Shown here in pieces: positions 16,542-63,940 of a stretch of 64,000 nucleotides of DNA (position 1 is its first letter; the number at the start of each line of letters is the position of its first letter). The stretch comes from a virus. The stretch spans positions 18,452-82,451 of the IMG/VR virus record IMGVR_UViG_3300028393_000040; one strand, written 5' to 3'. The notes under the pieces were generated by a model. The model saw nothing but the letters and a program-made list of their open reading frames with translations. It was not told the origin of the DNA and searched no databases. Position numbers and translations under genes: made by a program.

Positions 16542-16562
16542 TTTAATCTAGTTTAGATTAAA
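16542..16562. repeat. Perfect inverted repeat at sulfotransferase 3' end
   Basis: TTTAATCTA / TAGATTAAA with a 3-base loop. It contains the stop codon of the sulfotransferase gene and lies just upstream of the gp13 late box. No T-run follows. Confidence 0.5.
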
Positions 16563-26727: not shown

Positions 26728-27350
26728 TTGATATTTGATTCATATTGTTTATCTTGAATAATAGAATTAAATGGGAATAGTGGCTTTACGATATATCTTC
26801 CTTCTAAATTATAATTGTAACTCATATGCTGCATGATTTTTGCATAGAAATTATCTATTTCCATTCCTGATGCTTCCGCCATATAAATAATGTCATCAAA
26901 AACCTTTTTGGAAATTGCATACGAATGTGTTGTTACTATTTGATTTCTGAACATTGATTCGATCAACCCACCAAAATACAAAAAATCCCAATCCTTGTTT
27001 AAGGTTTCCTGATTATTTAGAAGAACTTCATTAGGATCGTTTAAGAATTTTATATCATCTTCAAATATAAGAATCTTCTTGTATGAATTTGTTTTTGCAT
27101 CATTTACAATATTTAAATGAGATGATCTACAACCTAATGCACCAAGAACATACTTTGTGTCTTGCTTGTTAAAATTTCTAAACAAACTAAAACTTGGTGG
27201 TAATTGATTATAAGATGTTGCTGATATCCTTTGAAAATTTTTTATATTAAAGGTTTTAAATTGATTTAAAATATTTTCGTTGCGTTGTTTATCATTATCT
27301 AAATTAATGTAATAAATTTTATCGAAATATGTATCTATTAAAGATTTCAT
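26724..27350 (-). CDS. GT25-family glycosyltransferase
   Basis: 208 residues. FDKIYYINLDNDKQRNENIL is the GT25 (LPS galactosyltransferase-like) start, followed by ALGCRSSHLNIVNDAKTN and the acidic ILIFEDDIKF (near 94-103). WDFLYFGGLIES and THSYAISKKVFDDI complete the family pattern. It resembles the plus-strand GT25 at 58925. It has its own sigma70-like promoter facing that of the sulfotransferase at 27427. Confidence 0.82.
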   Translation of the reverse strand: MKSLIDTYFDKIYYINLDNDKQRNENILNQFKTFNIKNFQRISATSYNQLPPSFSLFRNFNKQDTKYVLGALGCRSSHLNIVNDAKTNSYKKILIFEDDIKFLNDPNEVLLNNQETLNKDWDFLYFGGLIESMFRNQIVTTHSYAISKKVFDDIIYMAEASGMEIDNFYAKIMQHMSYNYNLEGRYIVKPLFPFNSIIQDKQYESNIN

Positions 27351-27356
27351 ACTTTT

Positions 27357-27384
27357 ATCATAACGTATTATGGATACATGTCAA
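27357..27384 (-). promoter_or_regulatory. Sigma70-like promoter, TTGACA-N16-TATGAT
   Basis: Near-consensus -35 at 27379-27384 and -10 at 27357-27362, six bases before the ATG at 27350. Confidence 0.7.
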
Positions 27385-27391
27385 ATAGAAC

Positions 27392-27419
27392 TTGATTTAC
27401 TTGGTTTACATGTTAAATT
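27392..27419 (+). promoter_or_regulatory. Sigma70-like promoter, TTGATT-N16-TAAATT
   Basis: -35 at 27392-27397, -10 at 27414-27419, seven bases before the ATG at 27427. It lies inside the longer open frame starting at 27370, arguing against that start. Confidence 0.6.
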
Positions 27420-27426
27420 TATAATA

Positions 27427-28251
27427 ATGAAAAACATATTTTTTAATTCTTCCATGCCTCGTAGCATGAGTACATTGTTTCAATGTATATTGAATCAAAA
27501 TCCAGAGATAAATGCAACCCAAACCGATCCAGTTTTAGAGTATCTATACGGCGCAAGAATGAATTATACTTCAACGCTTGAAGTTAAAGCAATGAATGAT
27601 GATTTAGCAAAAAAGACATGGAGAGGTTTTTGTTGGGGTGGATTAGAAGGATATGCTAATTCTTATACAGACAAACCAAATATTTGTATCAAGACTCGTG
27701 GAGGAACAATTCATTATCGTTGGTTTGAATCCTTTATGCCATACAAACCCAAAATGATTTGTATGGTAAGAAATTTAAAAAGTATTTTTTCTTCTATGGA
27801 AAAAATCTACAGAAATAGTCAAGAATATCATCAGGCTATACAGAATCATTCGGAAATGAAAGGAACTTCTACTGCCAAGAGAATTGATGCTTGGATTGCT
27901 TCGCCACCTGTTGGATTAGCATTGGAGAGACTTCAACAAACTTTCTTAGAGGGAATCAACAAAGAAGTTTTATATATTAGAGCAGAAGACTTAACCAGTT
28001 ATCCTGATAGAGAGATGGATAAAGTTTATCAGTATCTTAATTTAGAAACTTTTAAACACGACTTCGATAATGTTGAACAGACTATTAAGGAAGATGATTC
28101 AGTTTATGGTTTAACTTCTGATCTTCATACTATTAAACGTAAAGTTCAACCTTTATCTGCTGATTATAATAATATTTTAGGAAAGCAAGTTTGTGATTGG
28201 ATTGATAACAATTTTGCTTGGTATCAGCAAGGATTTGGCTATACTAAATAA
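27427..28251 (+). CDS. Sulfotransferase family protein
   Basis: 274 residues. SSMPRSMSTLFQCILNQNPE (8-27) is the phosphosulfate loop, though GxPRSG is altered to SMPRSM. The 3'-phosphate motif is MICMVRNLKSIFSSMEKIYR (near 111-130). LYIRAEDLTSYPDREMDKVY then QYLNL is the usual C-terminal pattern. The start at 27427 puts the loop at the usual distance from the N-terminus and fits the promoter. The radical SAM gene follows after four bases. Confidence 0.78.
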   Translation: MKNIFFNSSMPRSMSTLFQCILNQNPEINATQTDPVLEYLYGARMNYTSTLEVKAMNDDLAKKTWRGFCWGGLEGYANSYTDKPNICIKTRGGTIHYRWFESFMPYKPKMICMVRNLKSIFSSMEKIYRNSQEYHQAIQNHSEMKGTSTAKRIDAWIASPPVGLALERLQQTFLEGINKEVLYIRAEDLTSYPDREMDKVYQYLNLETFKHDFDNVEQTIKEDDSVYGLTSDLHTIKRKVQPLSADYNNILGKQVCDWIDNNFAWYQQGFGYTK

Positions 28252-28255
28252 TTAT

Positions 28256-29251
28256 ATGTACAATGTAACAGACATAAGGGACATACACATTGAATTAACT
28301 AGTAAATGTAATGCTAGATGTCCAATGTGTTCTCGCACACGTTTAATTCAGTCTGGTAAAGAAGATTTATTACGAGATGAAATAACATTAGAATTATTTA
28401 AAAAATGGTTTTCTGTGGATTTTGTTAAGCAATTAACAGGATTAAGAATGTGTGGTAATTTAGGAGATGCTGTTATGGCAAAGGATACAGTTGAAGTTTT
28501 TCAATATTTGAGAGAAAACAATTCGAATATGAATCTTAAATTGTTTACAAACGGAGGAGCAAGAGATGATAATTGGTGGAAAAAACTTGCAGAAACTAAC
28601 GTCGAAGTTATTTTTGCTATTGATGGTTTAGAAGATACAAACAAACTTTATAGAGTTAATACTGTTTGGGAAAAAATTATGCACAATGCAAAAGTTTTTA
28701 TTGATGCTGGTGGAACTGCTTCTTGGTATATGCTTGTTTTTAAACACAACGAACATCAAGTAGATGAATGTAGAGCATTAGCTTATAGTATGGGTTTTAA
28801 AAAATTTGATCCAAAACATTCCAATCGTTTTGGATCTGGATCTGGTTTAGCTGTATATGATAGTGATGGTGTTTATACGCATACAATAGAGCCTACAACA
28901 TATAGTTTAAATATAAAGGATAAAGAAAAAAAGATTAATACTGGCAACAATATTGATTGTAAATCTTTAAGGAAAAAAAGTATATATGTAGCAGCAAGTG
29001 GAATTATAACTCCATGTTGTTGGACTGAATTATCTAAAAAAGCAATGCATGATAAACGTAAAGAATATGAAAACAAAATTGGTTCTTATTACAGTTTACA
29101 TGATTACACTTTAGAAGAAATTCTCAACAAAGATTCATTCAATAATATTGCAAAATTATGGACAAACGAACCTTTATCTATTTGCAGTAGTCAGTGTGGT
29201 AATTTTAAAAAATGTGAATCACAATTTATTGAAAGAGTCTCAAACTCTTAA
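28256..29251 (+). CDS. Radical SAM enzyme with SPASM-like C-terminus
   Basis: 331 residues. CNARCPMC (C-x3-C-x2-C, near 17-24) binds the SAM [4Fe-4S] cluster. LRMCGNLGDAVMAKD and KLFTNGGARDD are TIM-barrel segments. The C-terminal Cys set (DCKSL, TPCCW, CSSQCGNFKKC) is typical of a SPASM auxiliary-cluster domain, used in peptide maturation or in sugar and alcohol dehydrogenation. The reaction cannot be assigned. The ATG at 28256 is preferred, because the longer frame from 28193 lies within the sulfotransferase gene. It is probably co-transcribed with the sulfotransferase. Confidence 0.82.
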   Translation: MYNVTDIRDIHIELTSKCNARCPMCSRTRLIQSGKEDLLRDEITLELFKKWFSVDFVKQLTGLRMCGNLGDAVMAKDTVEVFQYLRENNSNMNLKLFTNGGARDDNWWKKLAETNVEVIFAIDGLEDTNKLYRVNTVWEKIMHNAKVFIDAGGTASWYMLVFKHNEHQVDECRALAYSMGFKKFDPKHSNRFGSGSGLAVYDSDGVYTHTIEPTTYSLNIKDKEKKINTGNNIDCKSLRKKSIYVAASGIITPCCWTELSKKAMHDKRKEYENKIGSYYSLHDYTLEEILNKDSFNNIAKLWTNEPLSICSSQCGNFKKCESQFIERVSNS

Positions 29252-29530: not shown

Positions 29531-30250
29531 TTAAATATTTTTTTCTTTAATTGTTGTTTGAAACCAAAAATCATCTTTCAAGGCAAGTTTTACTTCATTA
29601 TAATTTAAAAGTTGTTCTTCTAAAGTATATATATTTTGTTTTAATATGGTGGGAGTTACGTTTTTATACCTTTCTTTAAATTCTGTTATAAATTCATATT
29701 CTTTTTGAATATTAAATTTATTTTCAATTAAATCTTCGTAGTATACTTGTAAAAAACTAATATTATTTTGTTCAAAATATGTACTATATTTTTTGTGTAT
29801 TGCTTCCCGTTTATCCGTTTCGTAATAATATTTTTCAACATCAAAATTAAATTTAATATTGGTACTATTCAGTAATTGTTTGTTTGTTTCTGTAATACAA
29901 AAATGCTTTGTTATACGTGCTTTTTGTAGAGAGAGATTTTTTAAAAATTTATTTTTTCTTTCCAGAAAAATAACTTTTAGGTTTTTATCTTTTATATACT
30001 CCTCTATACTAAAATTATATTTCTTTTCGAGAGCTAACGCTTGGGAAAAAGTTAGTTTGAATCCTGTAAATAACTTTTTAGTATGTAAGTTACTAATTAT
30101 TTTTTGAGGAGTATTATCTACTGTAATAATATCATTTAAATTTCTAATTAAAAAAATTTCAGGATGACACCAAACATTGTTTTGTTGGTTTAATAAATTT
30201 TTAATTAAATTACTTCCACACCTTGTATCACTAAATATTATAAATTTCAT
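29531..30250 (-). CDS. Sulfotransferase-like protein (Stf0-type)
   Basis: 239 residues. FSDTRCGSNLIKNLLNQQ (6-23) is a phosphosulfate-loop variant (TRCGSN), and LKVIFLERKNKFLKNLSLQK (near 90-109) is the 3'-phosphate motif. VWCHPEIF in between is typical of Stf0/LPS sulfotransferases. It is very AT-rich. The third gene of a minus-strand unit led by the glycosyltransferase at 31096; its neighbour at 30254 is a paralogue. The catalytic base is not assignable. Confidence 0.68.
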   Translation of the reverse strand: MKFIIFSDTRCGSNLIKNLLNQQNNVWCHPEIFLIRNLNDIITVDNTPQKIISNLHTKKLFTGFKLTFSQALALEKKYNFSIEEYIKDKNLKVIFLERKNKFLKNLSLQKARITKHFCITETNKQLLNSTNIKFNFDVEKYYYETDKREAIHKKYSTYFEQNNISFLQVYYEDLIENKFNIQKEYEFITEFKERYKNVTPTILKQNIYTLEEQLLNYNEVKLALKDDFWFQTTIKEKNI

Positions 30251-51556: not shown

Positions 51557-51562
51557 TATTTA
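51557..51562 (-). promoter_or_regulatory. Late-type TAAATA box
   Basis: CTAAATAAT, with TAAATA seven bases before the ATG at 51549. Confidence 0.5.
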
Positions 51563-51991
51563 GTCTAAAATACCAAATTTTTCTAGTTCTTGTTTGGGTG
51601 CTTTACCTATTCTTAGGTTTAAAATGCCATTATAATAGTCTTTTCTGAATAAAACATCTTTTTCCATTTGTTCTTTTGCTTCAAAATAAGCCAAAGCCCA
51701 TTTGGAATCGCAAGTTTTTAATATTTTAAATATAAATTTATCCTTACCATGAATTTTAATATCTTGCATTAAATCATTTGAAGAACTTGTATATGTTTTC
51801 CAATCGGATTCTTTCGAGTCAATCCTGTTTCTGGTTTTTCCTTTTAGAGGTTTTCTTTTAACCCTAGATTTACATTGTTTTTTACCAATATACTTCTTAT
51901 TACTAACAGTATTTGTAATTTCATATATAAACCCAAAAGTATCTTCTGTTATTTCAACAGATTCATTTAAAATCCAGTGACCAGTATCCAT
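51560..51991 (-). CDS. GIY-YIG nuclease-like protein (SegE type)
   Basis: 143 residues. FGFIYEITNTVSNKKYIGKK (19-38) matches the GIY-YIG core, with G-x-I-Y and K-Y-I-G in place of GIY and YIG. KTYTSSSNDLMQDIKIHGKD, WALAYFEAKEQMEKDVLF and YYNGILNLRIGKAP are the remaining conserved parts of the T4 SegE-type phage proteins. The catalytic Arg lies probably in the basic stretch KSRVKRKPLKGKTRNR and the Glu in YFEAKE. It may be a homing nuclease or a domesticated copy. Its start overlaps the stop of the 80-residue gene by one base. Confidence 0.75.
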   Translation of the reverse strand: MDTGHWILNESVEITEDTFGFIYEITNTVSNKKYIGKKQCKSRVKRKPLKGKTRNRIDSKESDWKTYTSSSNDLMQDIKIHGKDKFIFKILKTCDSKWALAYFEAKEQMEKDVLFRKDYYNGILNLRIGKAPKQELEKFGILD

Positions 51992-52233: not shown

Positions 52234-52246
52234 AATGTGTTATAGT
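52219..52246 (+). promoter_or_regulatory. Sigma70-like promoter for uvsY operon, TTGAAA-N16-TATAGT
   Basis: -35 at 52219-52224, -10 at 52241-52246, 12 bases before the ATG at 52259. It overlaps the start of the divergent gene at 52233. Confidence 0.55.
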
Positions 52247-52258
52247 GTTAATATACTT

Positions 52259-52657
52259 ATGGAGATATTTGATAAATTTCAGGAAGAAATTAAAGAAGAT
52301 GTTAAAATCGATCAATTAAATTTGTTAGATAAGCAAATGATGCTTCCTGCAATTAAACATAAATGGGTTGCAAGACTCATGATGCAAAAAAGAACAAAAA
52401 ATTCTTTAGATAAAAAGAAAAAAGAATTAAAAGAAGAAGTACTTAAAACATTAACCGAAAAAGGCATCCCAACAGGTATACCTAAAGTAGCACTCGATGC
52501 AAAAGTAGAATCTTCTGATGTTATTCAAAAAATAAATCAAGAAATTCAAGACGCACAAATTTTAATAGAATATTTAGAAAAAGTTGAAGGTGTATTTCGT
52601 AGCATGACTTTTGATATTAAAAATATCACAGAAATTACCAAGTTAGAAACCACATGA
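52259..52657 (+). CDS. uvsY: Recombination mediator UvsY
   Basis: 132 residues (T4: 137). It loads the UvsX recombinase on single-stranded DNA covered with gp32. MEIFDKFQEEIKEDVKIDQL matches the T4 start MRLEDLQEELKKDVFID, and the C-terminal FRSMTFDIKNITEITKLE matches IKSRGFAIKHIQDMRAFE. The middle is a Lys-rich helical region. The ATG at 52259 is preferred over one at 52235, which overlaps the -10 region. It precedes UvsW with an ATGA overlap. Confidence 0.8.
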   Translation: MEIFDKFQEEIKEDVKIDQLNLLDKQMMLPAIKHKWVARLMMQKRTKNSLDKKKKELKEEVLKTLTEKGIPTGIPKVALDAKVESSDVIQKINQEIQDAQILIEYLEKVEGVFRSMTFDIKNITEITKLETT

Positions 52658-54081
52658 TTGAATTAACCTTAACCCCTAGCGGTAAACAAGCTCAGATTAA
52701 CACTGATGCGTCTACGCTTGCGCTGATAAGGGATAAGTTTTCTATTGCAAATCCCGCACACCGAAGGAACGCACGGTTTGTACCAGCAAGACTATACTGT
52801 ATTACCCCATCTGGTAAATTCGAAATAGGAATGTTAAAAGACATATGTTCTTATTTGGAAAGTTGCCAAAAATCCTTTAATATAACTGATATTCTTAAAA
52901 AGAAATTTTCTGTTGGGTTTCAAAATCCAATTATTAAAAAATATTGCATGGTTTACAGGGATCACCAAGATAAATCAATCAACATGGCAATTAAAAAAGG
53001 AAGAGGTATCATTTGTATTCCTACTGCTGGTGGAAAAACTCTTATTATGGCTGGTATAATAGAAAGCATGAGACTTTCTATGTATAAGCCAAATGCAAAA
53101 GCTCTTGTTTTGGTTCCAAATATTCAACTAGTTGAGCAGACTGCAAAGGATTTTGAAGAATATGGCATGGAAAAAGTTACCAAATGGTCAGGTGATAACA
53201 TCCCAGATCAAAATGCAACAACTATTGTTACTGGTACTCAAATACTTTTAAGTAACAAAAGTGATTTATCACTTTTAAATGATATTGATTTACTTTTAGT
53301 TGATGAAACTCATGGGTTAAGAAAGGGAAACGAGATTAATAAGGTTCTGCAACTTATAAACACTGATTATAAATTTGGGTTTACTGGAACAATGCCCACA
53401 TCACTTATCGATCAATGGAATATTATTGGAAAGATAGGACCCATCATCTACGAGGAAAAAACTCAAGACTTACAAGACAAAAATTATGTTTCAGATTTTA
53501 AGATATTTATATTAAATATCATTCATAAAAATATTCCAAGATTTAATCATAATCCAGCTAGACCAAGTGAAGCTTTTGAAAAAGAACTTGAATTTTTGAC
53601 AAATAACTCAAGAAGAAACGAAATTATCACAAATCTTGCGTTAAAAGTCAAAAATAATACAATTATAATGGCTGACAGGATTCAACATGGAGAAACTCTT
53701 GAGCAATTATTAAAAAACAAAAGTGAAGAATTTAACAAGATTGTTTATTTCATAAGGGGATCAACCGAAATGGAAGACAGGGAAGCAATAAGAAAACTTA
53801 TGGACGGTAGAGATGACGTAGTTGTTGTTGCAATATCGAAAATCTTCAGTACAGGTATAAATATACCCAATCTTCATAATATTATTTTTGCATCTGCTGG
53901 TAAGGCAAAAATAAAGATCATGCAATCCATTGGTCGTGCGTTAAGATTACATCCAACAAAATCAATGGCTAATATTTTTGATATTTCTGATAATACAAAG
54001 TATGGCAAAAGACATTTAACCGAAAGAGAAACTTTATACATTAACGAAAAATACAATTATGACAAAACCGACATACATTAA
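52654..54081 (+). CDS. uvsW: UvsW helicase
   Basis: 475 residues (T4: 587). This superfamily 2 ATP-dependent RNA-DNA and branch-migration helicase switches T4 from origin- to recombination-dependent replication. Walker A PTAGGKT is near 123-129, DETH near 216-219, motif III TGTMPTS near 247-253 and motif VI QSIGRALRLHP near 422-432. It is about 110 residues shorter than T4, mainly at the C-terminus. It is coupled to UvsY by a 4-base overlap and overlaps gp55 by 23 bases. Confidence 0.92.
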   Translation: MIELTLTPSGKQAQINTDASTLALIRDKFSIANPAHRRNARFVPARLYCITPSGKFEIGMLKDICSYLESCQKSFNITDILKKKFSVGFQNPIIKKYCMVYRDHQDKSINMAIKKGRGIICIPTAGGKTLIMAGIIESMRLSMYKPNAKALVLVPNIQLVEQTAKDFEEYGMEKVTKWSGDNIPDQNATTIVTGTQILLSNKSDLSLLNDIDLLLVDETHGLRKGNEINKVLQLINTDYKFGFTGTMPTSLIDQWNIIGKIGPIIYEEKTQDLQDKNYVSDFKIFILNIIHKNIPRFNHNPARPSEAFEKELEFLTNNSRRNEIITNLALKVKNNTIIMADRIQHGETLEQLLKNKSEEFNKIVYFIRGSTEMEDREAIRKLMDGRDDVVVVAISKIFSTGINIPNLHNIIFASAGKAKIKIMQSIGRALRLHPTKSMANIFDISDNTKYGKRHLTERETLYINEKYNYDKTDIH

Positions 54082-54718
54082 AAGAAAAAAACGAGTAAAA
54101 AAAGAAGACACATTTGATGATTTAATTTATCATGATATTATTGATGATAGTCATGATTTAAGAGATGATCATGAAGAAGAAATGTTAATAAATGATGAAG
54201 ATGACATTGATCTCGTTGAAGATGCTTTAGATGAAAATATTTTGGTTGAGGTAATCAAAGATACTAATGATATTCCAAAGCGAAAAACAAAAGCAGTTAC
54301 GGATAAAACAAAATATTACGTTGACCCGAAAGAATTTGATTCCGAAATAGTCAGCTATTATGATACTGGTAAAATGTCTGATAATTTAGCAAATATGATT
54401 AGTAAAATTTCTAATAAATTAAGTTATGCCCCAAACTTTATTAATTATACTTATCGAGAAGAAATGGTTGGTGATGGTGTTATCAGAATGATGAAGGCAT
54501 TGATGGCAAAAAAGTACAATCGTGAGAAAGGAACAAATCCCTTTTCATATTTTACTAGAATTGCCTTTAATGCATTCAGAAATAGAATCAAAAAAGAAAA
54601 GCACATGGCTGACACTCACGAAAAATATCAAAATGAATTAATGATGATGTCTCAAAATTATAACGTTTTGATGAAAAATAATAATATCAGAATTAACAAA
54701 GAAAGAGAAAGACATTGA
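54059..54718 (+). CDS. 55: Late-transcription sigma factor gp55
   Basis: 219 residues (T4: 185). This minimal sigma factor recognises the TATAAATA late promoter with the gp33 co-activator and the sliding clamp. Residues about 105-190 hold the sigma-region-2-like core: YTYREEMVGDGVIRMMKALM, then FSYFTRIAFNAFRNRIKKEK. The first 80 residues are an extension, first basic (YIKRKKRVKKE) then very acidic. It fits the many TAARTA boxes before the structural genes. Confidence 0.88.
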   Translation: MTKPTYIKRKKRVKKEDTFDDLIYHDIIDDSHDLRDDHEEEMLINDEDDIDLVEDALDENILVEVIKDTNDIPKRKTKAVTDKTKYYVDPKEFDSEIVSYYDTGKMSDNLANMISKISNKLSYAPNFINYTYREEMVGDGVIRMMKALMAKKYNREKGTNPFSYFTRIAFNAFRNRIKKEKHMADTHEKYQNELMMMSQNYNVLMKNNNIRINKERERH

Positions 54719-54749: not shown

Positions 54750-55808
54750 ATGAAAATTTCTAGTAAAAAAATAGGATGTTTTTCTGATATTCACATAGGT
54801 TTAGGTCAAGATGGCAAACAATGGCACGATATTGCTTTGAAATTTGCTAAATGGGCATCCGAAAAATATAAAGAACTTGGTATTGATGAAATTATAATAC
54901 CAGGCGATATATTTCACAATAGAAGCGAAATCAATGTAGCTACTTTAGCTACAGCAAAACAATTTTTTGATTATTTTAAAGATTTTACCGTTTATATTTC
55001 TAGCGGAAATCACGATTGCTTTTACAAAAACAATAGCACGGTTAACTCTATATCAATTTTATCTGGATGGAACAATATTTTAATTATTGATAAAGAATGC
55101 GTTGTTCTTAAAACACCTTATAAAGATATTGTTATGGTTCCTTGGGGCGTTGAATATGATCAAATACCAAAAACAGACGGTATAATATTTGGTCATTTTG
55201 AAATCAGTTCGTTTTATATGAATTCCTACAAGGTATGCGAACATGGAATGGAATCTAAACAACTTTTTAAAAAGTCTCCTATGATTATTTCTGGTCATTT
55301 CCACAAAAAGGACGATAGAAAATATGATAAAGGTAGAATTGTTTATTTAGGTAGTCCATATCAACATAATTTTGGAGATACTGGTGATAGCAGAGGAATT
55401 TATGTATTAGATTTAGAGAAAACCGAACTACAATTTATAGAAAATAATATTTCACCTAAACATCTTAAACTTTCAACTAAAGCATTTGTGGAAAACCCCG
55501 AATCTATAAAAAGTGAATTGTTAAAGGAACAATTAAAAAACAATATTGTTAGTTTAATTATTGATACCGAAATTGATCAAGAAAAACTTGCACTTTTAAC
55601 TTCAAAATTGCAAATAATAGAACCATTATCAATTAGAACTGATTTTATTACAGATAATACAGGTATTGAAACGCTCGACAATACAAAGGAAATAGATTCT
55701 GGCAACTTAATTAAAGATATGGAGGATTTTGTAAACAACTTAACCATAGAAAACAAACAAGAGGTCATTGATTATCTGACCGAATCTTATAATTTATTAT
55801 CTAAATGA
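54750..55808 (+). CDS. 47: Recombination nuclease subunit gp47 (Mre11-like)
   Basis: 352 residues (T4: 339). With gp46 it resects DNA ends. The phosphoesterase motifs are all present: FSDIHIG at 11-17, PGDIFHNR near 50-57, SGNHDCF near 83-89, GHFE near 147 and SGHFHKKDD near 181-189. SPYQHNFGDTGDSRGIYVL is the conserved end of the domain. gp46 is not next to it; instead a glycosyltransferase overlaps its stop by four bases. Confidence 0.93.
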   Translation: MKISSKKIGCFSDIHIGLGQDGKQWHDIALKFAKWASEKYKELGIDEIIIPGDIFHNRSEINVATLATAKQFFDYFKDFTVYISSGNHDCFYKNNSTVNSISILSGWNNILIIDKECVVLKTPYKDIVMVPWGVEYDQIPKTDGIIFGHFEISSFYMNSYKVCEHGMESKQLFKKSPMIISGHFHKKDDRKYDKGRIVYLGSPYQHNFGDTGDSRGIYVLDLEKTELQFIENNISPKHLKLSTKAFVENPESIKSELLKEQLKNNIVSLIIDTEIDQEKLALLTSKLQIIEPLSIRTDFITDNTGIETLDNTKEIDSGNLIKDMEDFVNNLTIENKQEVIDYLTESYNLLSK

Positions 55809-56578
55809 ACAATTTAATAGGAATAGGCATTCTTGACCTTTATACACAAGAAGATTTACAAAATTGTTGGGATTCCATTCCTGACAAGTATAAAAATCAT
55901 GATGATTTATTGACTCGTGTTTTTGTGGTAAGCAACAATGATAATAAACCAATAACTGATGCCCAGACAAAAAAATACTCAACTGCTGTTCAAATGGCAA
56001 CAATGAGAAATTATCTTGTTTCTCAAATGAGACTAAAGGGATGCAAATATTATTTTCTTTTACACTCTAATGTGATTATTAAAGATCCAGAAATATTTGA
56101 AAAAACACTTAAATTAGCAGATACTTTCGGTACATGGGTAATCATGGGTCCTTCCACAATAGATCAAACAATTGAAGACGATAATGGGTTAAATTTAAAC
56201 CTTTCAAAGAATTTAAATTCTGAATTTATGTTTTTATTTTCAGGAATTGTAAAAAACAATGGTTATTTTGATGAAAAGTTTTTTAATGGAAAAGATATTG
56301 ATGTATTGGATTATGTTTTAAAATTAAGAAATAAAAAAGCATACCCTGCTACAAATTATCATCCAATAATATCAGAAGGTTTAGAAATTAAAAAAACGCA
56401 AATTAATAAATTGGGATTAAAGGATATTCCTGACATAGACAGAAGCGTTCAAATAAGTTATGCAAACTTTTTTAATACGCACAAGTACATCCCAACCGAA
56501 ACCGATCCCCCACACGTATCAGAAAAAGAACTTTTAGCATCAATGGAGGAAATTCAAAAAAATTATGCAAAACGGTAA
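55805..56578 (+). CDS. GT-A-like glycosyltransferase
   Basis: 257 residues. IGIGILDLYTQEDLQNCWDS, VQMATMRNYLVSQMRLKGCK and YYFLLHSNVIIKDPEIFEKT place it in the same family as its downstream neighbours at 56565 and 57367, but the acidic E-D-D of those proteins is replaced by H-S-N here, so catalysis is doubtful. DYVLKLRNKKAYPA fits the acceptor half. It begins four bases inside the gp47 stop (ATGA) and heads a nine-gene glycan cassette. Confidence 0.62.
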   Translation: MNNLIGIGILDLYTQEDLQNCWDSIPDKYKNHDDLLTRVFVVSNNDNKPITDAQTKKYSTAVQMATMRNYLVSQMRLKGCKYYFLLHSNVIIKDPEIFEKTLKLADTFGTWVIMGPSTIDQTIEDDNGLNLNLSKNLNSEFMFLFSGIVKNNGYFDEKFFNGKDIDVLDYVLKLRNKKAYPATNYHPIISEGLEIKKTQINKLGLKDIPDIDRSVQISYANFFNTHKYIPTETDPPHVSEKELLASMEEIQKNYAKR

Positions 56579-57380
56579 AATAGGAGTTGGATTAATAACA
56601 TGCGATAGACCTAATTTCTTTAATAAAAGTTTTTTATCTATTAAAGATATACCAAATATAGATATAGTCGTAGTGGATGATGGCATAACACCAGTTGTTG
56701 ATGAAACTTTTGAAGTTGCATCTATTAAAACAATAGGCAAAATAGGTGTTGGTAAAGCAAAAAACAAAGCTTTAAAATATCTATTAGATAATAATTGTGA
56801 ACATATTTTTTTAATGGAAGATGATATTTTTATTAAGAATGGTGAAGTTTTCCAAAAATACATCGACACTGCTCTTAACACGGGCGTTAAACATCTTAAT
56901 TTTGGATTGCATGGAAACCACAATCTTGATCTTAATAAAAAACCAATCGTCAGAAAGACCATAAATTATACTGATGGTTGTAAAATAGATTTGTACCCCA
57001 ATCTTCTTGGTGCATTTAGTTATTACCATAGAGATGTTTTAGATAAATGCGGGTTAATGGACGAAGAATACTATAATGCACTTGAACATGTTGATCATAC
57101 CTATCAAATTATAAAAGAAGGATACCATCCTCCGTTTAGATGGTTTGCTGATATTCATAATTCCCAAAATTACCTTGAAGATATTGTTGAAGATCACAAA
57201 GAAAGTAAAATTAGATCGGATGAGGATTTTCACAAAAAATTTATAACAGCATTAGATATTTTTATTAAGAAAAACAACTTTTCAGTAATTGGCAATTACG
57301 GACCCCAAGAAAAAAATTACACAATCCAAGAAGTAATACAAAATCTTATAACAATTCACGAAAAATATGCCAGAAAATGA
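56565..57380 (+). CDS. GT2-like glycosyltransferase
   Basis: 271 residues. IGVGLITCDRPNFFNKSFLS (5-24), IDIVVVDDGITPVVDETF and CEHIFLMEDDIFIKNGEVF (E-D-D near 85-87) define a GT-A/GT2 enzyme. GKIGVGKAKNKALKYLLDN is the nucleotide-contact helix. EEYYNALEHVDHTYQIIKEG holds the likely catalytic His/Asp. It overlaps both neighbours by 14 bases. Paralogue of 57367. Confidence 0.78.
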   Translation: MQNGKIGVGLITCDRPNFFNKSFLSIKDIPNIDIVVVDDGITPVVDETFEVASIKTIGKIGVGKAKNKALKYLLDNNCEHIFLMEDDIFIKNGEVFQKYIDTALNTGVKHLNFGLHGNHNLDLNKKPIVRKTINYTDGCKIDLYPNLLGAFSYYHRDVLDKCGLMDEEYYNALEHVDHTYQIIKEGYHPPFRWFADIHNSQNYLEDIVEDHKESKIRSDEDFHKKFITALDIFIKKNNFSVIGNYGPQEKNYTIQEVIQNLITIHEKYARK

Positions 57381-58149
57381 AAAAATAGGTGTTGGTATAA
57401 CCACTTATAATTCAGAAGGGTATTTTAAGACTCTTTATGATTCTCTTCCTCTTGATAAGATTGACGAATTGGTTGTAGTTAATGGTGGAGATCGTTATGA
57501 GGGAAAATATGAATGTGATTGGATACAACATAATAAAAACAGGTATCCTTCAGTGTGTAGGAATGATTGTATAACATTTTTGTTAAATAAACAATGTCAA
57601 CACATTTTTTTAATTGAAGATGACATGATTATAAAAAGTCCAAATATTTTTAATGAATATATCAATGCATCAAAGATTACGGGATTAAATTATTTTTGTT
57701 TTGCCAGTATATCAGTGGATGCGGGTGCTGCGCACGAAAGAACACCAAAATTAAAAGTAAATTATGGAAATTTACTAGAAGTTTATTTTTATAATAATAC
57801 CTGCAACGAATTTACCTATCATCATAGAAGTTGTTTTGAAAAAACAGGGTTATATGATGGAAACATGAGAGAATTATTTGATGCAGATATGGTTTATCGT
57901 CAAACCTTAAAACATCCAAATATTTCTCCTTTTTGGTGGTTTAGTGACCTCGGTAACAGTGATGATTTAATAAAAAATAATCCAGATGCGCACAGTCGAT
58001 TACAAACCGATAGACCAGACGGCTCAAGAGAACAGACTATTGTTGGAACAATGCAGTATTTTAAAAATAAACATAGTTTAGCAGTTAATGAAATACCAAT
58101 TAAAACGGAACTTGAGGTTGTTGATCATTTAAAAAAAATAAAACCATGA
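57367..58149 (+). CDS. GT2-like glycosyltransferase
   Basis: 260 residues. EKIGVGITTYNSEGYFKTLY (4-23), IDELVVVNGGD and QHIFLIEDDMIIKSPNIFNE (E-D-D near 83-85) match the preceding gene, with the same FWWFSDLGNSDD-type ending, so the two arose by duplication. VCRNDCITFLLNKQC is the helix before the acidic motif. The substrate is unknown. Confidence 0.78.
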   Translation: MPENEKIGVGITTYNSEGYFKTLYDSLPLDKIDELVVVNGGDRYEGKYECDWIQHNKNRYPSVCRNDCITFLLNKQCQHIFLIEDDMIIKSPNIFNEYINASKITGLNYFCFASISVDAGAAHERTPKLKVNYGNLLEVYFYNNTCNEFTYHHRSCFEKTGLYDGNMRELFDADMVYRQTLKHPNISPFWWFSDLGNSDDLIKNNPDAHSRLQTDRPDGSREQTIVGTMQYFKNKHSLAVNEIPIKTELEVVDHLKKIKP

Positions 58150-58928
58150 AACTTGCTATAGGAATTAATATATTTGGATGTTATAAAAGACAAGATCATT
58201 GTATTGAAGTTTTAAACAAACTTGTATCCAAATATACAAATGACATAGAATTATATAATATAACATTTGAAAATGAAAAAAATTATTTATTGGGGTTTAA
58301 GCACTTACCATTATTAAAACGAACCGCCAAAGATGTTGCGTTATATTCAATATCAAATAAACCAATAGCAAAAGATTTTTTTGATATTCTTTCTGAGCAA
58401 GATTGTGATTACTTTCTCTTTGTTAACAGTGACATAATGGTTACTGAAAAATTAATAAAGTTAATTTTAAAAGGCGAATATGAAACGTATTGCGTCTCTA
58501 GGCATGATGTTTATGAAATAAACGATTTATCAGTTGATAAAATTATGCCTTTTAGAATTGAAATAGCTGGATTTGATGCATGGGCAGTTAAAAAAGATTG
58601 GTGGATTAAAAATAGAGATTTATTTGACGATTATATTTACGCAGAAGCATTATGGGACGTTTTCTTTTCGGTTCAAATGTACAATAATAGTAATTGCATA
58701 CTTTGTAATAAAGATGTTTACTTGGCTCATGAAAAACATGAATTAAAATGGAATGAATTTTCAGCAGAGCATACACATAATGAAAAATTATGGAAAAGTA
58801 CACCTTATCACGAAAGGTGGCATAAATTCATATACGATTATTTAACACAAAGACCAACATGGGGTCATTTTTTATACCCATTACCAGATGAGCTTGAAAA
58901 AGAAAAAGAATATTTAAAAATTAAATGA
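58146..58928 (+). CDS. GT-A-like glycosyltransferase
   Basis: 260 residues. AIGINIFGCYKRQDHCIEVL at the start, FLFVNSDIMVTEKLIKLI (N-S-D near 91-93 in place of D-x-D), IEIAGFDAWAVKKDWWIKNR and FFSVQMYNNSNCILCN fit a GT-A fold. A Trp- and His-rich C-terminal third (YHERWHKFIYDYL) is unlike the two preceding genes. ATGA overlap with 57367. Confidence 0.65.
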   Translation: MKLAIGINIFGCYKRQDHCIEVLNKLVSKYTNDIELYNITFENEKNYLLGFKHLPLLKRTAKDVALYSISNKPIAKDFFDILSEQDCDYFLFVNSDIMVTEKLIKLILKGEYETYCVSRHDVYEINDLSVDKIMPFRIEIAGFDAWAVKKDWWIKNRDLFDDYIYAEALWDVFFSVQMYNNSNCILCNKDVYLAHEKHELKWNEFSAEHTHNEKLWKSTPYHERWHKFIYDYLTQRPTWGHFLYPLPDELEKEKEYLKIK

Positions 58929-59593
58929 AATATATAAATAAATTTTACGAAAAGATATACATTATTCATTGGAAACCTTTAAAAGAAAGAAAAGAATATT
59001 TGTCTAAAAAACTTGAACAGCTTAATTTTTCACATTTAGTGGAATGGGTCGATCAATATGAAACCGAAGAAAATTTACACGGTATTAAAAATGTTTTTAA
59101 ACTAAATCTAAGACTTCTTGCTGTTAATATGTCACATATCTACTGTTACGAAGAACAAATTAAGCACCAATATAAAAACATTCTAATTTTAGAAGATGAT
59201 ATAGATTTTGGAGAACTAGACATCTTAACTTATTTGGATCAAGTTGCATTTGAATTTCAACAATTAGATGGAGATATTGCATTTCTAAGCACTTGTTGTG
59301 GATTAAAGGTTAAAAAATTAAAACCACCAACTTTATTATATTATGATAAAAATTACGTAACCCGTTGCATGGGTGCTTATGTTGTAAATCTAAGATGCGC
59401 TGAAAAATTAATAGCAATGTGTACAAATTACCATGCAATAGACAGAGTTTTAAATTATTCTTTGCCTCTTATAAATGTAAGAGTATTATGGTCGGGTTTA
59501 CCTATTAGACAAGGCAGTGAAACAGGCAAGTATAAAAGCAGCTTTCCACTAGAAATAAGAGATGCTAACGGTAATTACAAAAATATATCATGA
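58925..59593 (+). CDS. GT25-family glycosyltransferase
   Basis: 222 residues. FYEKIYIIHWKPLKERKEYL (6-25) is the GT25 opening, with LAVNMSHIYCYEEQIKH and ILILEDDIDFGELDIL (E-D-D near 91-93). FLSTCCGLKVKK and TRCMGAYVVNLRCAEKLIAM are typical of the second half, where the enzyme binds its acceptor. Distant paralogue of the minus-strand GT25 at 26724. ATGA overlap with both neighbours. Confidence 0.8.
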   Translation: MKYINKFYEKIYIIHWKPLKERKEYLSKKLEQLNFSHLVEWVDQYETEENLHGIKNVFKLNLRLLAVNMSHIYCYEEQIKHQYKNILILEDDIDFGELDILTYLDQVAFEFQQLDGDIAFLSTCCGLKVKKLKPPTLLYYDKNYVTRCMGAYVVNLRCAEKLIAMCTNYHAIDRVLNYSLPLINVRVLWSGLPIRQGSETGKYKSSFPLEIRDANGNYKNIS

Positions 59594-60183
59594 AACTAGA
59601 ATTAATTAAAAAATATTTTAACCCGCAAACCATATTAGATATAGGTGCACATCATGGCGAATTTAATCATCATTGTAGAGCTTATTTTCCTAATAGTTAC
59701 ATATTTTCAATTGAAGGTAATGAATTATGCGAAGAAATTTTAAAAAATAATAATTGTTTATATCTTATAGCACTTTTAGGTAAAGAAAAACAAAAAACCA
59801 TTTTTTATAAAACAAAACTTGATTTACATTGCACAGGTAATTCTCTTTATAAAGAGTTGACAACTCATTATAATGATATTAATTTAATAAAAGAAGAAAA
59901 AGAACTTCAAACTTTAGATGAAATTTTTTCAGCTAATGAAACTTTTGATTTGATTAAAATAGATACACAAGGTTCCGAGTTAGATATTTTAGAAGGAGGC
60001 AAAAAAATAGTTCAAAACGCAAAAGGCATTTTATTGGAAGTTTCCATAAAACCTTATAACGAAGGCGCACCGTTATATAATGATGTAATAAATTATATGA
60101 ATAGCATAGGATTTGAAAATAAAGAATTTTTAGATGGTTCAATGGAATCAATTCAAGCAGATATTCTTTTTATAAAAAAATGA
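59590..60183 (+). CDS. FkbM-family methyltransferase
   Basis: 197 residues. TILDIGAHHGEFNHHCRAYF (14-33) is the SAM-binding motif I, IFSIEGNELCEEIL the acidic second motif, and DLIKIDTQGSELDILEGGKK (near 119-138) the FkbM hallmark. These enzymes O-methylate sugars, which suits its place among glycosyltransferases. It is the only methyltransferase in the window. ATGA overlaps both ways. Confidence 0.88.
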   Translation: MKLELIKKYFNPQTILDIGAHHGEFNHHCRAYFPNSYIFSIEGNELCEEILKNNNCLYLIALLGKEKQKTIFYKTKLDLHCTGNSLYKELTTHYNDINLIKEEKELQTLDEIFSANETFDLIKIDTQGSELDILEGGKKIVQNAKGILLEVSIKPYNEGAPLYNDVINYMNSIGFENKEFLDGSMESIQADILFIKK

Positions 60184-60872
60184 AACTTTATACCGTTTTT
60201 ACAGAGTCACATTATGAAATGTTCAAAGACTATTTTATTAAATCTTTTCCCTTTGACACGAATTTAGAATTAGTAATTAAATTCAAACCACAGGTTTGTG
60301 CATCATCAGAGTTCCAAAGTGAAGGGTGGAGAGATACTATGAAATATAAAGTTCAATGTTTCATTGATGCTGCATATGAAACAAAAGATGGCGAATGTTT
60401 TATGTTTTCAGACCCAGATATACAATTTTTTAAACCATTCCATGATGATGTTGTTAAAGAACTAGGTGATTTTGATGCAGCATTCCAAAATGATTATGGT
60501 GGCGGTGTTAATACGGGATTTTTTATAATGAGATCCACCCCAAAAACTCGTGCATTTTTAAAAACCGTTCAAGGAAATCTTGAAAAATTTCCAGAAGAAC
60601 AAGTTTGTTTTAATTATATAATCAATAACTTTGACAAATTGCCAAAAGTTGCATATAAATGGAAGATGCTACCAAGAGAATATTGGACTTATGGTGAAAA
60701 AGCAATACAGATGGGTGTTAATGGACAACCTTTTAGCACATGGAGTGGAGAAGGAGATTTTGATATTCCTGAGAACATAATAATTCATCATGCTAATTGG
60801 GCAACACCATTCAAAAACAAAATAAAAATTCTTGATGTCGTAAAGGAAAAATACAATGCTAGAAACATTTAA
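60180..60872 (+). CDS. Nucleotide-diphosphosugar transferase (GT77-like)
   Basis: 230 residues. LYTVFTESHYEMFKDYFIKS, TMKYKVQCFIDAAYETKDGE and CFMFSDPDIQFFKPFHDDVV (metal-binding D-P-D near 77-79), then GGGVNTGFFIMRSTPKTRAF follow the Nucleotid_trans (GT77) pattern, with EEQVCFNYIINN where the family has DQ. IIIHHANWATPFKNKI supplies the late His. It overlaps the GT47 gene by 17 bases. Confidence 0.75.
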   Translation: MKLYTVFTESHYEMFKDYFIKSFPFDTNLELVIKFKPQVCASSEFQSEGWRDTMKYKVQCFIDAAYETKDGECFMFSDPDIQFFKPFHDDVVKELGDFDAAFQNDYGGGVNTGFFIMRSTPKTRAFLKTVQGNLEKFPEEQVCFNYIINNFDKLPKVAYKWKMLPREYWTYGEKAIQMGVNGQPFSTWSGEGDFDIPENIIIHHANWATPFKNKIKILDVVKEKYNARNI

Positions 60873-61737
60873 AAAATACTGCATCAGGGCAATATACCCA
60901 CCTTACCCACCTTATCATCAAGGTGATTATTTGGAACAATATTTTTTAAAATTTTATTTAAAAAATATAGAAGAATTTAAAAAGCTAGAAAGACAATTTA
61001 TTCCAGTTTGTTGGACTGATCTTTATTTAAAAGCTTTACACATAATAAATGATTTAGCGGTTGATTTGTCAAGATTGGATAAAGGTAAAAAATACTTTAC
61101 CGTATCTCAACATGATGATGCACCAGCAGTGCAGTTATTACCACCAGATACGATTAATTTCTCCGCTGGTGGCAATCAACCCAATACCATACCAATTCCA
61201 TTAATATGTAGCGCAATACCAAACCCACCAAACCAAAAAAAAGATATATTTTGTAGTTTTGTTGGTAGCGTAACATCACCATCTACAACCTTTGGCGTAT
61301 TAGCACATGATATAAGAATAAAAATGCTCAAAACATTAAAGGATAACCCCGAATATCTTTTAAAACCAAGAAACTGGTCAGAAGATATTAAAAAAGAAAG
61401 ACAGGATATGTTTATAGATATTACTGCTAGAAGTAAATTTACGCTTTGTCCAAGAGGATATGGTGCAACTAGCTATAGAATGTACGAAGCAATGCAGTTG
61501 GGTTCTGTTCCAGTTTACATATACAACGATTTTCCCTTTATACCTTACGCAGACAAGATTAACTGGAACGAAATAGCAGTTTTGATAAACCAAAATGATA
61601 TGGATAATTTAGATGCTATATTAAAATCAATTTCCGATGATCAATACAATCATATGGTTAATAAAATTAAAGAGATATATCCAAAATACTTTACACTTGA
61701 GGCAACATGTAATAATGTTTTAGAACATTTAAAATGA
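60856..61737 (+). CDS. Exostosin-like GT47 glycosyltransferase
   Basis: 293 residues. INFSAGGNQPNTIPIPLICS, DIFCSFVGSVTSPSTTFGVL and FTLCPRGYGATSYRMYEAMQ (near 194-213), then LGSVPVYIYNDFPFIPY are the exostosin domain's sequence order. In animals and plants GT47 enzymes build heparan-type and cell-wall polymers; bacterial and viral members are of unknown specificity. Exostosin-type glycans are often sulfated, which is suggestive given the five sulfotransferase-like genes here. Confidence 0.85.
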   Translation: MLETFKKYCIRAIYPPYPPYHQGDYLEQYFLKFYLKNIEEFKKLERQFIPVCWTDLYLKALHIINDLAVDLSRLDKGKKYFTVSQHDDAPAVQLLPPDTINFSAGGNQPNTIPIPLICSAIPNPPNQKKDIFCSFVGSVTSPSTTFGVLAHDIRIKMLKTLKDNPEYLLKPRNWSEDIKKERQDMFIDITARSKFTLCPRGYGATSYRMYEAMQLGSVPVYIYNDFPFIPYADKINWNEIAVLINQNDMDNLDAILKSISDDQYNHMVNKIKEIYPKYFTLEATCNNVLEHLK

Positions 61738-62495
61738 AAAAAATATTATTTGTAATTGCAAGATATAATGATAATAGGCAGCAAATATTTGATGAAATTA
61801 TCTCTCCTAGAAACAAAGCTTATTGTGATAAGCACGGATTTAAATATATTGTAATTGGTAATTCCGCACCTTTGTTTTTATATAGGCACAATCCCACATG
61901 GTGGAAATTTTCTATTGTAAAAGATCTTATTGATCAAGGAAAACTAGAAAATGGTGATATCCTTGCTCATATCGATGCTGATATGTATTTTGTTAATGAT
62001 TCGGTTTCAATTGAAACACCAAAATCTTTTTCATATGCAATAGATTCTGGTAATACCCATTGCATGGGTTGGTACAGCATAAAAGTTAATGATTGGTCAA
62101 AAAAATTAATCAATAATATTCTTTCACAAGAAAGATTTAATAAATTACACAATAATGTCACAATACATGACAGATTTAAAACATATTCTAGTTTTTGGAA
62201 TGAATTTAGAGAGCAAGCAAGTTGGTATAGTTTAGCAGGAATTAAAAGACATTCCGATAAACCGTTTTGGGAATATCCCAACAATGGTTTTCATAGTGAA
62301 ATGAATGAAGATGTAGTCTATTCAATTGATGAATTAAATGAAAATGTTCAAATATTTGATACGGGATTTAATGTAACCGAATGGCAAGGCGAAAGTGGTT
62401 GCCAGTTTAATATTAATAAAGTTTCAGTCGATAATGTTGTAATTAGACATTTTGCTGGTGGTCAAGATTGGAATAGTGTTAAAAATTGGTTATAA
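61734..62495 (+). CDS. GT34-like galactosyltransferase
   Basis: 253 residues. KILFVIARYNDNRQQIFDEI, NKAYCDKHGFKYIVIGN, PTWWKFSIVKDLIDQ and ILAHIDADMYFVNDSVSI (D-A-D near 81-83) are the GMA12/MNN10 (GT34) pattern. EWQGESGCQFNINK and VVIRHFAGGQDWN near the end supply the late conserved His. It is the last gene of the plus-strand operon and overlaps the converging gene at 62490 by six bases. Confidence 0.8.
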   Translation: MKKILFVIARYNDNRQQIFDEIISPRNKAYCDKHGFKYIVIGNSAPLFLYRHNPTWWKFSIVKDLIDQGKLENGDILAHIDADMYFVNDSVSIETPKSFSYAIDSGNTHCMGWYSIKVNDWSKKLINNILSQERFNKLHNNVTIHDRFKTYSSFWNEFREQASWYSLAGIKRHSDKPFWEYPNNGFHSEMNEDVVYSIDELNENVQIFDTGFNVTEWQGESGCQFNINKVSVDNVVIRHFAGGQDWNSVKNWL

Positions 62496-63188
62496 ACCTT
62501 TAGATTTTAAAAATGGTACAATATAATTGTTATATGTATTATTTGACATTGGGTAATATTCAAAGCAATGAAATTTAAGCATTGTTACTGATGAATTAAG
62601 ATTAAATGAAAAATTATATTTTTCAGAAATTCTTCTTGACCATTCGATATCTTCAGATTGCCCCCAAGTCAATTCCTCATTAAGAGGAATTTCTTTCATA
62701 ATTTCTTTTTTAGCAACCCAATATGAACCATTTATATACATCCACTTAGAACATCTATTTTCAAAATAAGGTAATAAATGCTCATGATTAGGTAAACTGT
62801 CTTTTGGTAACTCTTTTGATGAATGCCACAACCAATCTCTATATCTTTGTCCGTTATTTAATATAACATTACTACATACTTTAAAATCATTACCAAATTT
62901 TAAATAACCTTCATACCAATTATTATCAAAAACATGATAATCATGCATATAAACAATATTATTATATTTTGCATTTTCTGTTATTATATTTTTTTTTCTA
63001 GTAGTCCAATTTTGTTTTATAGATTCATCAAATTCAATAGTTTTAACAAAATTTTCATCTTTAAAATTAGATTTACCAACAATTATAACTTCAAAATTTG
63101 GTATTTTTAATTTTTTAACCGAATCAATAATTGTAGGAATGTATTGATTTGTATGCTCGGTTGTAGTAATTCCAAAAGTAAAATCCAT
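62490..63188 (-). CDS. GT2-like glycosyltransferase
   Basis: 232 residues. FTFGITTTEHTNQYIPTIID (3-22) and FEVIIVGKSNF give the nucleotide-binding half. NNIVYMHDYHVFDNNWYEGY (M-H-D-Y-H near 85-89) replaces the D-x-D, and LTWGQSEDIEWSRRISEKYN (near 180-199) is the strong galactosyltransferase C-terminal motif W-G-x-x-E-D-x-E. Second gene after 63197, eight bases away. A TAAATT box lies five bases before its start. Confidence 0.78.
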   Translation of the reverse strand: MDFTFGITTTEHTNQYIPTIIDSVKKLKIPNFEVIIVGKSNFKDENFVKTIEFDESIKQNWTTRKKNIITENAKYNNIVYMHDYHVFDNNWYEGYLKFGNDFKVCSNVILNNGQRYRDWLWHSSKELPKDSLPNHEHLLPYFENRCSKWMYINGSYWVAKKEIMKEIPLNEELTWGQSEDIEWSRRISEKYNFSFNLNSSVTMLKFHCFEYYPMSNNTYNNYIVPFLKSKGL

Positions 63189-63196
63189 AAATTAAT

Positions 63197-63940
63197 TTAT
63201 ATTAGAATCCAATTTTTTAAATCCAAAGGTCTTAAATCATGATCATCTGGTTTAGGATTTGGTAAATAGGGCCATTTATTATCGCTTATTGGAAAATATA
63301 TTTTATCTGCATTTGATATATATGCTGCAAACCATGAAAAAGTTGATTTTGATATACAGATTTTTTTTGCATTTTTAAGATAAATAAAATCTGACAAAGA
63401 ATCTAATGATCTTATATTACATCCAAGACTACTAAAGTCTTTTAAATAATCGCTATAAGGCTCATCAGTAACAATAGTGCATCGATTTGGCTTTTCCATT
63501 AATATAGCTTTTAAATACAAATTTTTATCAGTTATACTTCCACCACCAGCAAATACATAATCTGTTAAACGTATATGTATTACTAATTCATCATCTAATG
63601 GTTTTTCATATTGATTTTCGTTTTCAATTTGCAAATAATTTATTACATTCTGTCTTCCTATTTGTTTGAAACATTCATATTTATGTATCATAAAATCAAT
63701 ACACCAACCATTTTTTGAATTTTTAACATTTTCAAAGAATTTTTCTCTATTATTATTGTAAATTTCACTTGCTGATTTAATATTATCGTGTACTATACCA
63801 TCTTTTATTTCATAGGTGTTTAAAAACCCTTGTATTTTTTCAGGTATAAACTTCATACCAGTTAATTTATGACAATGCATAGCCGCTACGAAATAATGTA
63901 GTCTATTACCCATTCTACCATCGGATCTTATTGTTATCAT
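63197..63940 (-). CDS. GT11-like fucosyltransferase
   Basis: 247 residues. ITIRSDGRMGNRLHYFVAAM (2-21) contains the G-x-M-G-N-R-L donor loop of GT11 alpha-1,2-fucosyltransferases, VIHIRLTDYVFAGGG near 122-136 the H-x-R-x-x-D-Y motif, and CISKSTFSWFAAYISNADKI near 190-209 the S-x-S-T-F-S-W-W/F-A-A-Y motif, all canonical. It transfers fucose or a similar deoxysugar from a GDP-sugar. Confidence 0.82.
   Translation of the reverse strand: MITIRSDGRMGNRLHYFVAAMHCHKLTGMKFIPEKIQGFLNTYEIKDGIVHDNIKSASEIYNNNREKFFENVKNSKNGWCIDFMIHKYECFKQIGRQNVINYLQIENENQYEKPLDDELVIHIRLTDYVFAGGGSITDKNLYLKAILMEKPNRCTIVTDEPYSDYLKDFSSLGCNIRSLDSLSDFIYLKNAKKICISKSTFSWFAAYISNADKIYFPISDNKWPYLPNPKPDDHDLRPLDLKNWILI

Follow-up and report, generated by a model that had tools for sequence, protein, structure and literature searches.

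A glycan-gene island with a degenerate glycosyltransferase homologue at its head between gp47 and gp46 of uncultured T4-like phages

Described glycan systems and the locus

Phage glycosyltransferases (GTs) are usually scattered genes with guessed targets. We analysed a stretch of viral DNA of 64,000 nucleotides (nt; the window), which is the final 64 kb of the 82.4 kb IMG/VR record IMGVR_UViG_3300028393_000040 and for which no DNA-level similarity to isolate phages was found. Here the T4-type recombination gene gp47 is directly followed by nine genes, named g1 to g9 in their order, that belong to a glycan island located between gp47 and gp46.

Capsid glycans have been reported for the mycobacteriophages Che8 and Rita (PMC11256854). 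F1 mycobacteriophages (Shauna1 gp103, Rita gp101) encode GTs homologous to g2 and to the N-terminal half of c9, a recurrent gene of the island in related viruses, and no membrane machinery adjoins them. Shauna1 gp103 matches g2 at 30% (E 2e-19 pairwise, profile E 1.6e-15), and Rita gp101 is among the tblastn matches of g2. In contrast to the island, which comprises 7–22 genes and is headed by a pseudo-GT, these phages have two or three GTs near the genome end. Che8 gp108 was rejected as a homologue of g2 (E 0.07 with the A2 query), as was Che8 gp110 as a homologue of g5, since only a 28-residue motif is common to both. In the Escherichia coli phages HK542 and ECP1, g2-like GTs lie between the lysis genes and the terminase.

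Among T4-like phages, pelagimyophages and cyanomyophages carry several GTs together with sugar-nucleotide genes (PMC7029224). Most of their GTs belong to the tail-fibre hypervariable region or to scattered clusters of two or three, whereas the site of the island is fixed, of single origin and flanked by recombination genes (13 records). T4 itself has a GT gene adjoining gene 47, but its alpha-glucosyltransferase is a GT-B DNA enzyme encoded upstream of 47 and working with gp42, while the island encodes GT-A proteins downstream of 47 and gp42 was not found. Two further systems resemble the island in part. Chlorovirus PBCV-1 (PMC9614988), an unrelated virus of a eukaryotic host, encodes largely soluble GTs for multi-sugar capsid glycans, a likeness by description only. 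Inactive GT partners are known from protein O-glycosylation, namely GtfB, which binds the acceptor (PMC12809243), and Cosmc (PMC5493369).

Since phage glycan gene clusters are already known, the new elements of the present locus are its fixed insertion point and its pseudo-GT head. No description of a glycan island between gp47 and gp46 was found in the open-licence literature. The Moraphage paper treats GTs in large phages, contains no match to this arrangement in the passages considered, and was rejected as an account of this lineage.

Insertion point, head and tail of the island

In T4, cyanophages and related outgroup contigs (54 loci), gp46 stands directly after gp47 or after small open reading frames (ORFs) only, and at the junction the genes usually overlap by 4 bp or about as tightly. 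In the window, ORF calling placed nine ORFs (55805–62495, + strand), each with an ATG start, directly 3' of gp47 (54750–55808, +). The latter forms the left border of the island and encodes an SbcD-like recombination nuclease subunit (PF00149, 4.9e-9; tblastn to T4-like gp47). From gp47 through g9, the genes overlap in order by 4, 14, 14, 4, 4, 4, 4, 17 and 4 bp. A preliminary description of the locus as nine genes overlapping by 4–17 bp directly behind gp47, and as a co-oriented glycan cassette joined to recombination genes, was borne out.

Scans that used gp47 only revealed g1 behind gp47 in every contig that was close and long enough to judge, 33 of 33 in the first scan and all nine contigs with a gp47 identity of at least 46% in the second. 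In a tree built from 104 non-redundant gp47 rows, all 53 rows with g1 were located on one side of a single branch (support 98/96, 97% of bootstraps); because the far outgroups sit on long branches, only the near outgroup was given weight. As judged from these comparisons, the g1-headed island is shown to be a single insertion at the gp47/gp46 junction in the ancestor of an uncultured T4-like clade, whose lineage it defines. In one outgroup virus outside the g1 clade, g2-g3 directly follow gp47 with no g1 (L168:7037–8592), which probably means that the junction was entered a second time.

Using a g1 profile, 95 relatives were found, 80 of which were kept. The direct upstream neighbour of g1 was gp47 in 77 of the 80 (inserted genes in two, contig edge in one), and both genes overlapped by 4 bp in 67 of 72 cases. 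Downstream, g2 was the next recognised gene in 69 of the 80; an unrecognised gene followed in four more and g3 in one. Behind g2, two main types exist, either g3-g4 and further genes as in the window or c9 and further genes. A synteny comparison, suggested in the preliminary description as a check for varying order in close relatives, found the order kept apart from single-gene insertions or losses: G003 holds all nine genes, and G002 lacks only g6, the FkbM methyltransferase gene, and has one extra gene. Distant relatives share only the head. Across the clade, gp47 diverges to about 50% identity while the head g1-g2 stays constant. Distances at 50 loci correlated with those of gp47 at r=0.77 for g1, 0.56 for gp55 and 0.28 for g2, and we conclude from the sequence comparison that g2 is exchanged between lineages. 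The head g1-g2 is thus shown, on gene order, to be fixed as a position, and the tail of further GTs, methyltransferases and sugar-nucleotide genes to be modular.

A metagenome-assembled genome of Candidatus Nitrotoga also carries a g2 copy (L150:4992–5822) that groups within the viral g2 sequences; umuC-like and phosphorylase genes are on the same contig. Phage-to-host transfer, with a hint at the host range, is one possible explanation and mis-binning another.

Within the nine-gene unit, g2 (56565–57380, +) encodes a GT-A glycosyltransferase with an EDD motif (phrog_2456, 6.8e-27; model pLDDT 90), and g3 (57367–58149, +) encodes its paralogue, in which EDD is retained (phrog_2456, 8e-18). Family searches supported a GT assignment for g2 and g3 (phrog_2456/1579), for the GT25-type g5 (58925–59593, +; PF01755, 4e-9), for the nucleotide-diphospho-sugar transferase g7 (60180–60872, +; PF03407, 2.5e-10) and for the exostosin GT47-type g8 (60856–61737, +; PF03016, 4e-19), but gave no GT family match for g1. 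Neither a GT family nor a PDB match was obtained in the respective searches for g4 (58146–58928, +), which is kept in window-type cassettes, and g9 (61734–62495, +), which is 85–87% identical in two relatives. Their acidic motifs, NSD in g4 and DAD in g9, fit a GT and are not proof of one; g4 was rejected as a paralogue of g2 after a negative comparison. Eight GTs had been claimed at first sight. Five stand by family and g1 by its fold without the catalytic motif, while g4 and g9 are GT-like by motif only. The one FkbM methyltransferase, g6 (59590–60183, +; PF05050, 3e-15; TIGR01444, 2e-17), was confirmed. A methylated, branched glycan turned out to be a guess from this single gene, which is absent or replaced in most relatives. 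Nor do the nine genes form a complete pathway, since they hold no sugar-nucleotide genes; these sit further along in the same virus (nucleoside triphosphate (NTP) transferase, with a fucosyltransferase) or in relatives (dehydratases and epimerases).

The nine-gene unit is real, but it is only the visible start of the island, as the window stops inside it. Two inverted genes (62490–63940) precede the contig end: g10m (62490–63188, −), which resembles GT2 by an N-terminal motif, had no match in family searches and lies inside the gp47-gp46 interval by its position in L048, and g11m (63197–63940, −), with a weak GT11 (fucosyltransferase) match under the curated cut-off (PF01531, 2e-4). In three further contigs gp47 is 100% identical, and one of them, G001 (L048) of the same virus, extends beyond the window end to gp46. 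It comprises 20 genes in 15.0 kb between gp47 and gp46; the nine genes are followed by three inverted genes, an NTP transferase, a GT10 fucosyltransferase, a second GT25, a GT1-type and a RuBisCO-like gene, and then by gp46. In 12 further records the interval spans 6.2–16.7 kb with 7–22 closely packed and largely co-oriented genes, so that 13 records in all carry mostly glycan genes between gp47 and gp46. Sampled contents were GTs of several families, FkbM and C-methyltransferases, GDP-mannose-type dehydratases and epimerases. Besides its g2-like half, c9 has a half related to animal beta-1,4-galactosyltransferase (PDB 1yro, 8e-33).

The RuBisCO-large-like gene, which stands after the glycan genes and before gp46, lies about 5 kb beyond the window end (L048:15068–16282; 404 amino acids; PF00016, 1.6e-34). 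Its product keeps KPK and FIKxDE, apparently has no loop-6 lysine and resembles a RuBisCO-like (form IV) protein more closely than it does a carboxylase. The gene was absent from 15 other records searched.

The head protein g1 and its candidate acceptor

In profile–profile comparison (hhalign), g1 (55805–56578, +) aligned with g2 over the entire length (E 7e-15) and likewise matched g3 (4e-12). Its structural model (pLDDT 73.7) matched GT-A enzymes of the PDB in Foldseek, with an E of 9e-9 to POMGNT1 and a probability of 1.00, at modest TM-scores of 0.4–0.5. We then aligned 50 non-redundant g1 sequences jointly with 46 g2 sequences and compared residue columns. R15, D39, K66, N67, E85-D86-D87, H175 and D196 are invariant in all 46 g2 sequences. 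In g1, R15, D39 (D kept in 6 of 50), EDD (now mostly N/H, S, N), H175 and D196 are lost, and N69 (50/50) as well as its own D166 (49/50) and D169 (50/50) are kept. The g1 of the window has HSN in place of EDD. Among the 50 sequences, 46 have the motif [x][S/T]N and 3–4 a final D, which does not amount to a DXD-type motif. The dN/dS of g1 is about 0.05–0.25, similar to that of gp47, and g1 is under purifying selection. No detectable homologue of g1, and none of g9, was found in 50,697 phage records (isolates).

Going by alignment and model, g1 is a GT-A-fold homologue of g2 and g3 without the nucleotide- and metal-binding residues. Beyond what the preliminary description had recognised, it thus appears as a degenerate GT and as the most conserved part of the unit. 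By analogy, we read g1 as a non-catalytic subunit that may bind the acceptor or serve as a scaffold. In GtfA-GtfB and with Cosmc, too, a GT homologue without catalytic residues works with active GTs on protein acceptors. Cosmc, unlike g1, is a chaperone of the endoplasmic reticulum, and GtfA is a GT4-type enzyme of the GT-B fold whereas g1 is GT-A.

We propose that a promoter ahead of uvsY would drive the island together with the recombination genes, that g1 would bind the acceptor or hold the enzymes together, and that g2 and the soluble enzymes encoded after it would act in the cytosol to attach an oligosaccharide specific to the lineage. Proteins of these phages, or the surface of their host, are thus probably decorated with custom sugars. 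That g1 is constant and g2 changes suggests that the acceptor stays the same while the sugars vary. The most likely acceptor, with chances that we consider even, is a protein of the phage virion (capsid, tail or fibre), which would result in a glycosylated particle. More tentative is the full picture of a multi-enzyme protein-glycosylation complex around a dead GT, g1, that recognises one constant acceptor, with freely swapped sugar-adding enzymes, so that the virion would keep its site and change its sugar coat, and with co-expression of the complex and the interrupted recombination nuclease.

Alternatively, the enzymes might extend or alter lipopolysaccharide (LPS)/O-antigen or capsule precursors of the host at an early stage of infection, for instance as a barrier to superinfection, which we regard as possible, if rather doubtful. 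Variable tails would suit varied host surfaces, GT25 (an LPS family) and FkbM are present, and the block is tied to recombination genes and shows no late-type motifs. The same reading was proposed for the pelagimyophage glycosyltransferases (PMC7029224). However, hydropathy analysis of 165 interval genes revealed not a single polytopic membrane protein and no sign of a Wzx/Wzy-type set of flippase, polymerase and initiating phosphoglycosyltransferase. The island enzymes appear to be soluble, and neither a flippase nor a polymerase nor a lipid primer was seen among them. If the host supplied lipid-linked acceptors, this objection would fall away. In addition, a g1-g2 head that is constant across a clade with gp47 identities down to about 50% would be odd for a variable host-glycan acceptor.

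Several points weigh against a virion-glycosylating complex around an inactive g1. GT25 and FkbM genes are common in LPS and O-antigen loci, and the bacterial g2 relatives (L151, L152) sit in loci that look like envelope-glycan loci. Since g2 is unrelated to Che8 gp108, the best-studied virion-glycosylating phage provides no direct homologue. Some GT-A enzymes function without DXD in a metal-independent manner (GT14); g1 could therefore be active, and loss of DXD alone does not prove inactivity. A few divergent g1 proteins retain the final Asp (TSD, HSD, HTD), which look like steps of decay. Finally, both acceptor and glycan are predicted from the genes.

Glycosylation of modified DNA bases, as by the T4 alpha-glucosyltransferase (a-gt), is improbable. 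The T4 order 55 - a-gt - 47.1 - 47 - 46.2 - 46.1 - 46 does place a-gt just upstream of 47, and T6 has a GT-A-fold DNA glycosyltransferase, TAGT (PMC13216743). However, the thymidylate synthase/dCMP hydroxymethylase gp42 (PF00303) was detected in none of 16 records, among them records of 163, 203 and 212 kb, with T4 and T6 positive; the records may be incomplete, and DNA polymerase was found in 6 of 6 long ones. TAGT (PF20691) was not found in the records (T6 positive), a search for AGT/BGT Pfam matches that was confined to the cassette proteins gave none, g2 had no T-even phage match in tblastn, and a TET/JBP search was negative without a positive control. About as improbable is that g1 left glycosylation and became an accessory of the gp47/gp46 nuclease behind which glycan genes accumulated at an insertion-tolerant junction: the 4-bp coupling of g1 to gp47 in 67 of 72 cases, the tracking of gp47 rather than g2 by g1 and the entry of g2-g3 without g1 in L168 would agree with this, but g1 is always followed by glycan genes on contigs that reach far enough, and its homology to g2 and g3 is kept over the whole length.

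Further genes that may concern glycans were observed among the structural genes of the window. Three sulfotransferase-like genes are located at 27370–28251 (+), 16553–17341 (−) and 29531–30250 (−), the third by a weak Stf0 match; their products could sulfate the same glycans. A Radical SAM/SPASM protein gene (28193–29251, +) adjoins a sulfotransferase gene. A further GT25-type glycosyltransferase (26724–27350, −; 2.5e-14) is encoded close to the portal gene and well away from the cassette, and an RCC1-repeat protein of the structural region (18427–20511, −; phrog_7220, 6e-65) is perhaps a fibre or adhesin.

Expression signals and meaning of the island

The genes uvsY-uvsW-gp55-gp47 are continuous with the nine-gene unit, with a single gap of 31 bp. 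This co-oriented block opens with uvsY (52235–52657, +; PF11056, 2.8e-9), whose conserved start is probably an internal ATG at about 52259, followed by the helicase gene uvsW (52654–54081, +; PF04851, 2.6e-23, and synteny in relatives) and the late sigma factor gene gp55 (54059–54718, +; PF04542, 2e-4; homologous to cyanophage gp55). Upstream of uvsY lies a TTGNAA-16-TATGTTAT-like element that is conserved across five relatives; a stricter form of this motif is not enriched genome-wide. Beside the divergent promoter region before uvsY lies a SegE-like GIY-YIG endonuclease gene (51560–51991, −; PF19835, 2e-29) that recurs in relatives (cluster c12). The replication-type promoters of the preliminary description were not recovered: sigma-70-like sites occur at chance density (87 versus 80.5 ± 9.4), and a sigma-70-like motif common to replication genes was rejected as not enriched.

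The late promoter of T4, TATAAATA, did not exceed chance in the window. De novo counting gave ATAARTA instead, a candidate late-promoter motif of the lineage (window, L062–L069). In the record, ATAARTA was found 8–40 nt before 17 of 80 genes, of which 16 point leftward, and the 13 genes of the block all lack it; in G003 it precedes 35 of 176 genes and one of 19 block genes. Fisher tests for the block gave 0.06 (record) and 0.13 (G003), and since overlapping genes leave no space for internal promoters the comparison is weakened further. Early expression, as first described, is consistent with the absence of the late-type motif from the block; with these test values, early or middle expression is plausible only.

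Taken together, members of a large uncultured clade carry a whole island at one fixed, single-origin insertion point; its head is constant and apparently non-catalytic, and its tail can be exchanged. It offers a testable rule, namely that the acceptor would be constant and the sugars variable. The gp47-g1 pair can serve as a marker of the clade, and the fucosyl-, beta-4-galactosyl- and exostosin-type enzymes are a candidate soluble glycan toolkit. If the virion is indeed the acceptor, virion glycosylation would be extended to T4-like phages.

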